From: a bacterium
GTDB lineage: Bacteria; Patescibacteriota; Patescibacteriia; JACPHY01
Assembly: GCA_030647005.1 (NCBI GenBank)
Contig: JAUSKG010000008.1
Span: 1 to 54,468, forward strand
Reading direction: 5' to 3'
DNA: 54,468 nucleotides
Positions within the stretch are counted from its first letter, which is position 1. Every line of letters begins with the position of its first letter. Shown here one piece after another: positions 3,150 to 48,048 of the stretch. The translations under genes were made by a program, and so were the position numbers. The notes beneath the pieces are model-generated. The model ran no database searches, was not told the DNA's origin, and saw only the letters and a list, made by a program, of their open reading frames with translations.

Positions 3150-3192
3150 AGTTCGGGAGCGTAAAAAGATGCGTCATTTTGGGTCCACTTCC

Positions 3193-3352
3193 GTCATTTC
3201 GAGCGGAGCGGGAGCGAAGTCGAGAAATCTTGTTGAGCAGTAGGATGGTGCTTGTACTGTTGGATGAGATTTCTCCACTCCCTCGAAAACTCGGTCGGTC
3301 GAAATGACGGAAGGGGGAGGATTGCGGACTCACTCGGTCGAAATGACGAGGA
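3193..3352. repeat. Dispersed repeat, family C, inverted pair (CGTCATTTCGA...GAGAAATCT)
   Basis: One copy reads GTCATTTCGAGCGGAGCG and ends GAGAAATCT near 3231. A second, inverted copy starts GAGATTTCTCCACTCCCTCG near 3266 and holds GGTCGAAATGACG twice. Related copies end the window at 54391-54468. The whole 3150-3356 gap is occupied by this repeat and no gene is visible in it. Confidence 0.75.
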
Positions 3353-3356
3353 GGAT

Positions 3357-4280
3357 TCATTCGACGATCATCATTTCTACGATTACCTTATCCACCGGAT
3401 GGTCGCGCTGATCGCGCTCGACTTGCTCGATCGTATCCACCACTTCCATACCCACAACGACGCGACCGAACACCGTATGCTTACCGTCGAGCCACGGCGT
3501 TGCGTCGGCGGTGACAATAAAGAACTGGCTCCCGTTCGTGTCCGGGCCGCTGTTCGCCATGGCGAGCGTGCCCCGCACGATCTTCCGCGCATTGATCTCA
3601 TCCGCGAACATTTCTCCCGGTCCGCCGGTACCGTGCATACGGAAGTCATCTGGCTGCGTCCGCGTGAGCGGGTCGCCACCCTGGATCATGAAGTCGGGAA
3701 TCACACGGTGGAACTGCGTTCCGTTGTAGAAGCCCGCGCGCGCGAGCGTGAGGAAGTTCGCGACGGTCTTCGGCGCATCATCTGCGTAGAGCTCGATCTC
3801 GATGCTGCCGTAGTTCGTGCGGAGGGTTACGGTCGGGAGTACTGCTGCTGACATAGATACGATGGCATCACTGAAACGGATCGGTACGCGAACGAGATGG
3901 AGCTCGCGTCCGTCCTTGGCTGAGGATTCATACGCTTCGAGGTAGCCGGTGTCCGTCGTCGGCGACGTGTACGCAATCGTCGCATCCCACGGCCCGGGTG
4001 CGGTGTACTCCGGTGCGTACGCCGTCGTGAACGTCCGCGCGAGCGTTTTTCCATGCATGTCCACCACGCGGAGCGCAATCGTATTCTCAAATGCGATTCC
4101 CAAGCCGCTCGCTACAATGGGGCTCGCGACAAACGCATCGCGCTCCGGCGTTGTAATGGTGATCGGAACCCACGTCGCCGTTGGGGGAACCTCCGGAGCC
4201 GGTGCGGTCGCGGTTGGTGGCACCGCACTCCCGCACCCCGCACCGACAAACACGAGTACACCCAACACAACGCTTGTCAT
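3357..4280 (-). CDS. Lipoprotein: Gmad2 domain fused to cyclophilin-type prolyl isomerase
   Basis: A predicted exported lipoprotein of 307 residues. From the chosen ATG the signal peptide [16 protein letters not shown] ends in a lipobox (VGAG/C). Residues ~35-135 form a Gmad2-like immunoglobulin fold: [28 protein letters not shown], then [17 protein letters not shown]. Residues ~145-307 are a cyclophilin peptidyl-prolyl cis-trans isomerase: [18 protein letters not shown], then [15 protein letters not shown] with the catalytic Arg, then NGSQFFIVT and [12 protein letters not shown]. It likely folds proteins on the outer face of the membrane. An in-frame upstream ATG at 4394 would add 38 residues, but those are encoded by a dispersed repeat and would hide the signal peptide, so I reject it. 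The start codon itself lies at the edge of that repeat and has no SD. Confidence 0.88.
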
Positions 4281-4360
4281 TGCGAGCCGAATCCGTGAGG
4301 CGTGGCAATCCCGGCCACTTGGTTGAACGGGATTGCCGCGTCGAGGACTCCTCGCAATGA
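4277..4360. repeat. Dispersed repeat, family B (copy at lipoprotein start)
   Basis: It begins GTCATTGCGAGCCGAATCCG, passes through GGCAATCCCGGCC, and returns as GGGATTGCCGCGTCGAGGAC then CTCCTCGCAATGACA, giving an inverted arrangement of the same ends seen at 47091-47300. Its left edge supplies the ATG of the lipoprotein gene on the minus strand. Confidence 0.8.
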
Positions 4361-4444
4361 CACCAGTATGGAGTTTGAAGGGTACTCTATCCATAGTCCA
4401 TCTCAGTGTATCAATGTATTAATGCACCACGAAGCGAAACCCCG

Positions 4445-4876
4445 CTACCCCCGCTTCCTATACTTCAACGCAACGCGGTGCTTGGCGAGCTCGCGCTCGA
4501 GCGCGGCGGCCGTCGCGGCAAACGCGGTGTCGTCTGCAAAGCGCTTCTCCGCGAGTGCCTGGCGCGCACGCTCACGCGCCGCTTCGATGGCAACGATATC
4601 CAATTCCTCCACGCGGATGGCCTCGTCTGCGAGAATCGCAATGCGCCCACCCGTCGCTCCCGAATCCCCCGGGAGCACTTCAATGAACCCACCGGCGATG
4701 ACCATCGGCTCCTCTTTTCCATCGCGAACGATGCGCAACTCACCTGGCTTGAGCTCCGCCACATAGGGAATGTGATGCGGAAGCACGGTGATCTCCCCCT
4801 CCGTGGTCTGGAGGGTCACCTGATCAATCGCCGCGTCGTACACCGTTTTCTCGGGTGTGATGATGGAGAGCGTCAT
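4445..4876 (-). CDS. atpC: F1Fo ATP synthase epsilon subunit
   Basis: The epsilon subunit (143 residues) of the F1 central stalk, which couples rotation and can inhibit ATP hydrolysis. The N-terminal beta sandwich is typical: MTLSIITPEKTVYDAAIDQV, then TTEGEITVLPHHIPYVAELK. The C-terminal helical hairpin (IEAARERARQALAEKRF onward) is present. Family members start at MxLxIxTPE, so the second of two adjacent ATGs (4879, 4876) is used. Upstream in-frame residues come from a low-complexity AGCTGCAAGCTGCAAG repeat. It is separated from atpD by ~540 bases that contain an RNA gene on the opposite strand, so it probably needs its own promoter. A TAAAAT box near 4945 is possible. Confidence 0.93.
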   Translation of the reverse strand: MTLSIITPEKTVYDAAIDQVTLQTTEGEITVLPHHIPYVAELKPGELRIVRDGKEEPMVIAGGFIEVLPGDSGATGGRIAILADEAIRVEELDIVAIEAARERARQALAEKRFADDTAFAATAAALERELAKHRVALKYRKRG

Positions 4877-4959
4877 CATAAGCTGCAGGCCGACAGCTGC
4901 AAGCTGCAAGCGTTTAGGTCACATTCTGTGCTCAATGGAGCCATTTTATTCTGACCCAC

Positions 4960-4988
4960 TTGACATTGGAGCAAAACCGTGCTATCGT
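4960..4988 (+). promoter_or_regulatory. Promoter of the structured RNA gene
   Basis: TTGACA (4960-4965), 17-bp spacer, TATCGT (4983-4988). The predicted start near 4994 coincides exactly with the first base of a 13-bp helix in the transcript, which supports the assignment. Confidence 0.7.
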
Positions 4989-4993
4989 ATATA

Positions 4994-5362
4994 GTTGTGG
5001 TGTGGACCAGAGGTGTCGTGGGGTGTTTGCTGAACCCCTCAAGTTGTAGACGCCGGAGGGGCGTTTGCTAAGCCCCTCTCCACACCGCAACATCCCTACA
5101 ACTGCAGAGGCCGGGCAGATGGTGGCGCGTCACGCAGGGAGGAAGCCCTCGAAAGGCAACACCAGCAGTGCGACGGGCCCAAAACCGCACTGCGCCTCTC
5201 CGCGAATAGTCGTCGGCACAACCGCGAGTCCGTAAATGGTGGCGGCTCTCCAAGTGCATAACGACGGCGCGCGCCTCCTGCCCCGCCTCAACCTCCTTCG
5301 GTGCTCACGCACCAAGCAACACCGGAGCACTCGTCCCTCGTGACGAGTGCTCTTCCCTTTGT
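4994..5362 (+). ncRNA. Structured RNA of unknown class between atpD and atpC
   Basis: About 370 nt with no convincing ORF but its own promoter and terminator, transcribed against the atp operon. Its 5' domain is closed by a 13-bp helix: GTTGTGGTGTGGA (4994-5006) with TCCACACCGCAAC (5079-5091), one G-U pair. Inside, GGTGTC (5012-5017) pairs with GACGCC (5049-5054). Two hairpins follow with almost identical 9-nt loops: GGGGT/ACCCC with loop GTTTGCTGA (5020-5038) and AGGGGC/GCCCCT with loop GTTTGCTAA (5057-5077). AGTTGTAG (5042-5049) can also pair with CTACAACT (5096-5103), suggesting a pseudoknot or switch. The 3' part holds further hairpins (e.g. GGTGC TCAC GCACC). Conserved blocks of RNase P RNA, tmRNA and SRP RNA were looked for and not found. 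The class is unknown. Confidence 0.6.
5326..5362 (+). terminator. Terminator of the structured RNA gene
   Basis: Stem AGCACTCGT / ACGAGTGCT (5326-5334 with 5343-5351), 8-nt loop, followed by CTTCCCTTTGTG. The remaining 50 bases to the atpD stop show nothing further. Confidence 0.65.
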
Positions 5363-5413
5363 GAAACGCTCATCCTGATACCACTACTCCCTAGCTTACT
5401 ATCCCCTAGCTCA

Positions 5414-6820
<1,407 letters not shown>

Positions 6821-47307: not shown

Positions 47308-48048
47308 CTACCGCTTGCTGAGACCCTCGAACGCGCGGAGCACTTCGAGCGGGACTGCAAAGATGACGGTGTTCGACTGGTCGGACGAGATATCGTTGAT
47401 TGACTGGAGCGTGCGGAGGTGGAGTGCACCAGGGGATGCGCTGAGTATCTCGGCGGCCTTTGCCATGTTCGCGGCTGAGGCCACCTCGCCCTCGGACTTG
47501 ATGATGACGGCGCGCTTCTCGCGCTCGGCCTCGGCCTGCTTTCCGATCGTACGCTCCATGTCGCTCGGCAGCGAGACATCCTTGAGCTCGACGTTGCGCA
47601 CCTTGAGGCCCCACGCGTCCGTTTCCTTGTCCACGATCGCGCGGATGCGCTCCGCGAGCTGCTCGCGGTTGGCGAGGAGCTCATCGAGTGTCACCTCGCC
47701 CACGATGTTGCGCATGGTCGTCTGCGCGAACTGCGAGATCGCAAAGCGGAAGTTCTCTACCTCGATGAACGCCTTGCGCGCATCGGACACGTTGTAGTAG
47801 ATGACCGCGTTCACCGTCACGGAGACGTTATCGCGCGTGATGGCCTTCTGGTCGGGGACATCCACGGCCTTGATGCGGAGATCCACCTTCACCATCCGCT
47901 GGAAGACCGGCACGACGATCCGCCAACCAGGGTTTTTCACCGCGCTGAACCTTCCCATGGTGAAGAGCACGCCACGCTCGTACTCGTTGACCTGCTTGAG
48001 GGTCACGACGAGGAGGACAATGATGGCGATGATTGTCGGGATGGACAT
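47308..48048 (-). CDS. Slipin/stomatin-like SPFH protein
   Basis: A 246-residue membrane-anchored SPFH (band 7) protein. One N-terminal helix (IPTIIAIIVLLVVTLKQV) is followed by NEYERGVLFTMGRFSAVKNP and PGWRIVVPVFQRMVKVDLRI. DVPDQKAITRDNVSVTVNAV, IYYNVSDARKAFIEVENF, WGLKVRNVELKDVSLPSDME and an Ala/Glu-rich helix (EREKRAVIIKSEGEVASAAN) follow as in prokaryotic slipins. These form membrane microdomain cages, often with a partner NfeD protein, absent here. The start at 48048 fits homologues. Confidence 0.92.
   Translation of the reverse strand: MSIPTIIAIIVLLVVTLKQVNEYERGVLFTMGRFSAVKNPGWRIVVPVFQRMVKVDLRIKAVDVPDQKAITRDNVSVTVNAVIYYNVSDARKAFIEVENFRFAISQFAQTTMRNIVGEVTLDELLANREQLAERIRAIVDKETDAWGLKVRNVELKDVSLPSDMERTIGKQAEAEREKRAVIIKSEGEVASAANMAKAAEILSASPGALHLRTLQSINDISSDQSNTVIFAVPLEVLRAFEGLSKR

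Follow-up and report, generated by a model that had tools for sequence, protein, structure and literature searches.

An orphan structured RNA gene in the atpD-atpC gap of an Uhrbacteria-like Patescibacteria genome

In an uncultured member of the Patescibacteria with an Uhrbacteria-like genome, the gap between atpD and atpC of the ATP synthase operon carries a gene for a structured RNA that runs antisense to both genes. This RNA gene is real, orphan and new as a family; its general kind is already known. The best explanation, to which we assign a probability of about 0.6, is a stand-alone structured RNA gene of about 365 nt that belongs to an undescribed, narrow family and acts mainly in trans. 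Position, promoter, terminator hairpin, core and base pairing are conserved between two species, the second being represented by a genome of the same genus (G001), and the structured strand could be identified as well. Patescibacteria genomes are small, and here selection has maintained a 365-nt RNA gene in a genome of 1 Mb, between two genes of a core energy operon. RNA-seq and structure probing can be aimed at it directly, and the pair of sequences can serve as the seed alignment of a new RNA family. Searches of open-access literature gave no paper on this RNA or on non-coding RNAs of Uhrbacteria.

The locus, its promoter and its terminator

The window, i.e. the whole stretch of 54,468 nt that was analysed, is contig 8 of a genome of 1.06 Mb that is 98% complete (G000). 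Among named records, its atpC is closest to a MAG contig (JAUSKM010000040.1) and to a Candidatus Uhrbacteria sequence (JACPHY010000016.1). The RNA gene region comprises positions 4960-5357 on the plus strand, with the following features:

4445-4909, minus strand: atpC (epsilon subunit), next gene in the atp operon; likely start at 4876 (MTLSIITPEK)
4960-4988, plus strand: promoter TTGACA-17-TATCGT, TG-extended (TTGACA 4960-4965, TATCGT 4983-4988)
4994-5091, plus strand: domain 1, with helix P1 (4994-5005/5080-5091, 13th pair 5006-5079) around two hairpins (loops 5025-5033 and 5063-5071)
5042-5103, plus strand: possible pseudoknot of 8 bp (AGTTGTAG 5042-5049 / CTACAACT 5096-5103)
5107-5289, plus strand: domain 2, the conserved core of 183 nt, with a closing helix, a GGCGCGU helix and two arms (35 modelled pairs)
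5107-5118/5278-5289, plus strand: closing helix of domain 2
5124-5130/5269-5275, plus strand: GGCGCGU helix of domain 2
5133-5142/5195-5204, plus strand: first arm of domain 2, carrying the hairpin 5165-5172/5186-5193
5230-5239, plus strand: CCGUAAAUGG, held in the second arm of domain 2, which was added by RNAalifold
5289-5313, plus strand: linker CAACCUCCUUCGG, similar to the anti-Shine-Dalgarno tail of 16S rRNA, then hairpin GGUGCucacGCACC (5300-5313)
5325-5357, plus strand: terminator-like hairpin (5325-5335/5342-5352), strong, with a weak T-run
5414-6775, minus strand: atpD (beta subunit)

The atpD-atpC gap is unusual here, because in 47 of the 78 loci compared the spacing is below 80 nt. 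An initial reading of the DNA, made from the sequence only, had proposed that the RNA cuts atpC off from the rest of the operon; as a matter of gene order only, this holds for each of the family's three genomes. In other Patescibacteria (L050, L054, L061 and L091) the gap contains long, near-perfect hairpins that are apparently unrelated in sequence. Elsewhere in the window, inverted repeats with GTCATTTCGAG / GTCATTGCGAG ends and a MITE-type look (3185-3348 and 4275-4362) sit either side of, and overlap, a cyclophilin-like ORF. A palindrome, GCTCAATGGAGC (4930-4941), lies upstream of the RNA promoter and is kept in opposite orientation in G001 (L002 near 1833-1846).

The elements of the original reading were all recovered, displaced by no more than one or two bases. 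The promoter was found as originally read. It is the sole sigma-70-like site between 3500 and 6500, for a chance expectation of 0.8, and G001 has an identical TTGACA-17-TATCGT around a diverged spacer sequence. A strong hairpin is likewise present where the terminator had been placed, and its position is kept in G001 with a different sequence and a better T-run; the window's own tail TTCCCTTTG, however, is a weak T-run, and the hairpin is missing from the list of the terminator scan. With a sigma-70 promoter of its own and a hairpin of terminator type, the locus is probably transcribed independently. On its plus strand we found no plausible ORF, the longest frame being 56 aa from a TTG start, in line with the earlier view. 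One conserved-looking ORF (MV...HNDGARL) was rejected, as it has no Shine-Dalgarno sequence and no synonymous changes and its frame is not kept. The frame is broken between the window and G001 by indels of 1 and 2 nt. This loss, together with identical blocks that lack synonymous changes, argues against a protein product.

Fold and covariation between two species

Conservation in G001 is the foremost reason why the RNA gene is more than a chance product. There, a DNA search of 95 relatives detected a homologue in the same gap and the same orientation (E 4.4e-9); beyond G001 this search gave no convincing homologue. The plus strand from 4994 to 5362 folds at -173.3 kcal/mol (z -5.6), which none of 100 shuffles equalled, and the opposite strand folds more weakly (z -2.2). 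For the G001 copy a z of -5.8 was obtained. The plus strand is the structured one since it is marked by G-U pairs, which in P1 and in the arms turn into A.C mismatches on the other strand.

Domain 2 carries most of the comparative evidence. A covariance model built from the window sequence of this domain alone recovered the G001 copy with 90.4 bits (E 5.2e-16). All 35 modelled pairs are intact in both species, and 12 of them have changes on both sides, versus a mean of 6.1 for shuffled controls and at most 1 after sliding the partners by 1-3 columns, all counted on an alignment of only the window and G001 that was fitted to the structure. Nine of the 12 double changes fall in the closing helix (GAGGC.GGGCAG / CUGCCC.GCCUC vs AACCG.AUAGUG / CACUAU.CGGUU in G001) and three in the hairpin 5165-5193. 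With RNAalifold, 48 pairs were obtained in all, 14 of them with double changes. Both cores share the fixed blocks GGCGCGUCACGCAGGGAGGAA, CCGUAAA and AACGACGGCGCGCGCC. Judged from these alignments, the covariation evidence appears strong but narrow, the latter because it comes from two sequences.

In domain 1 the 13-pair helix (4994-5006/5079-5091) starts, as had been noticed, at the predicted first base; a helix of at least 13 pairs from the first 5 nt arose once in 1000 composition shuffles. Covariation had been suggested as a check on this helix and on the two hairpins. P1 does covary, being maintained in G001 through two G-U swaps and a double change; the twin loops are absent there. The near-identical 9-nt loops themselves (GTTTGCTGA and GTTTGCTAA) are present in the window and occur in 0.03% of shuffles. 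The additional 8-bp pairing is present too (P about 0.01) but, like the loops, has no equivalent in G001. Both elements may be real in the window. The proposal that the loops form a binding module used twice finds no comparative backing because they and the pseudoknot are missing from the sole homologue, and on the sequences at hand they cannot define a module. At the place of the twin loops, domain 1 of G001 (L002:1730-1780) contains a tandem 18-nt duplication, GTGTGGCACTGCTGTTTT twice. Downstream of domain 2, the linker is unpaired in the window prediction and mostly paired in that for G001; the 16S tail of G000 reads GGATCACCTCCTT.

Known RNA families and distribution

A scan with all Rfam models, proposed as a further check, left the RNA without a family. 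In the window the Rfam 15 covariance models found only a tRNA at gathering score, and at E<=10 the single match in 4800-5500 was an irrelevant one of 11.8 bits on the opposite strand; the G001, G002 and L050 loci returned nothing usable. The statement that the RNA is not RNase P RNA, tmRNA or SRP RNA was borne out. RNase P RNA (RF00010) has no match at the locus, and the genome has its own at G000:C12:4935-5388 (141.8 bits). For tmRNA (RF00023), also without a match at the locus, the genome has a gene at G000:C17:18154-18515 and a second match on C1. SRP RNA (RF00169, RF01854) gave no match at the locus at E<=10 and none in the genome at E<=1. 6S RNA (RF00013) had no match in the genome at E<=10, and the core is branched with kept arms, not a single long bubbled hairpin.

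Two observations concern these families in the genome at large. With both bacterial Rfam models, SRP RNA was undetected at E<=1 in G000 and in nine other genomes of the class, while most control genomes gave a match. The second tmRNA-like gene (G000:C1:4926-5326, L033:1501-1901) scores 106 bits with RF00023 (cut-off 47) but was not called by ARAGORN. It keeps the G3.U70 acceptor pair, encodes ACUG in place of ACCA and has a candidate 25-codon tag frame, VNAFHRAKEAVANAFRMPMLASAIA, with a stop in the expected loop; the tag of the usual tmRNA is ANDNVAFARAA. This gene may be a paralogue, or a contaminant introduced by binning.

Searches of 381 genomes of the class (model R1) and 380 of the phylum (model R2), both run with stricter filters at which weak relatives may be lost, gave no other convincing member. 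A match in G598 (19.6 bits, E 0.03) was dismissed as chance-level, and a weak R1 match in the window (47416-47532, 23.7 bits) was dropped since its sequence looks like coding DNA. No viral contig contained an exact copy of the 21-nt core block, and plasmids searched for distant similarity gave no match to the RNA. Because the core was not found in these class and phylum genomes or in the other genus of the family, the RNA is not an old housekeeping RNA.

That other genus, represented by G002, has at the same place and in the same direction an antisense-oriented promoter (TTGACG-17-TATTGT). By eye, a hairpin followed by TTTTCTTTT adjoins the atpD stop, although the terminator scan does not list it. 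The antisense-oriented strand of the gap folds at z -3.25. No sequence similarity to the RNA was detected, and R2 with its filters off reached at most 5 bits. The G002 element may be a relative that diverges rapidly, or else an independent gene.

Competing explanations and known systems

The locus thus offers what a stand-alone non-coding RNA would have: a promoter, a terminator (with a weak T-run), a conserved covarying structure and no conserved ORF. Conservation in G001, covariation and the missing Rfam match uphold the sequence-only reading of an independent structured RNA gene from a class without known family. We propose that it is transcribed from its own promoter opposite to the atp genes and forms two domains, a 5' one closed by P1 and the 183-nt core, whose closing helix would be free in sequence as long as pairing is kept. 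The helices would present the fixed core blocks for binding by a partner, either a protein or an RNA, such that the RNA would act in trans through fixed blocks on a freely changing scaffold. Such trans action, which we infer from the anatomy of the RNA, appears most likely; transcription, partner and function are likewise inferred.

The main rival, though unlikely, is cis-acting antisense control of the atpD-atpC junction, in which epsilon-subunit expression is reduced or uncoupled by opposing transcription or by pairing of the RNA with the complementary spacer of an mRNA spanning atpD and atpC. It would account for the presence, in the atpD-atpC gap of all three family genomes, of a promoter and a terminator pointing this way, for G002 keeping position and direction without detectable sequence similarity, and for the unusual gap. 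Inheritance alone can, however, explain the shared position; the RNA overlaps neither a coding sequence nor the atpC start region, and an antisense role could do without the maintained pairing and the invariant core blocks. Clearly less probable is a trans-acting sRNA whose C-rich linker (CCUCCUU, 5292-5298, similar to the 16S tail) covers Shine-Dalgarno sequences of mRNAs, as is reported for RNAIII and RsaE in Staphylococcus aureus (PMC9217828). The stretch is largely unpaired in the window prediction and G001 has CUCCUU at the equivalent place; but in the G001 prediction it is mostly paired, CCUCC is not exactly kept, and most of the RNA is far too elaborate for such a role.

We regard it as very improbable that Rfam models missed a diverged housekeeping RNA, i.e. 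6S or SRP RNA. Both are undetected in the genome and domain 2 has about the size of 6S RNA, yet neither gave a match at the locus at E<=10, the core is a branched junction and not a single long hairpin with bulges, no SRP apical motif is seen in both species, and the RNA was not found outside the genus. MITE-like inverted repeats nearby and the long hairpins in the gaps of other relatives could hint at a functionless mobile hairpin repeat or a chance fold of GC-rich spacer. This is scarcely credible given the conserved place, promoter and terminator hairpin and the compensatory changes between window and G001; the locus is not a repeat, since it occurs as a single copy in the genome. The preferred reading, a stand-alone RNA acting mainly in trans, could be extended: the RNA may represent a novel class of large, structured RNAs in Uhrbacteria-like Patescibacteria, built around a conserved ribonucleoprotein core. 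From its place opposite the ATP synthase operon, it might couple epsilon-subunit expression with some other process. We consider this extension doubtful.

Among known RNAs, 6S RNA is stand-alone with a closed domain of about 180 nt. The RNA described here is likewise stand-alone, with a closed domain of similar size, but differs in its branched core and the lack of an RF00013 match. RNAIII is a long, multi-domain RNA, in which it resembles the present one. As in RNAIII and RsaE, a C-rich stretch is able to pair with Shine-Dalgarno sequences; unlike there, this segment is not clearly unpaired and not exactly conserved in G001, and there is no homology. There is also a likeness in kind to the orphan structured non-coding RNAs of bacterial comparative screens (e.g. 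PMC2864571, PMC6429828, PMC8632094), which are reported as GC-rich, intergenic, stand-alone, covarying and without a family, as is this RNA. Compared with them, it is distinguished by its origin in uncultured Patescibacteria, its occurrence in two species only, its antisense placement inside the atp operon and the lack of an Rfam match.
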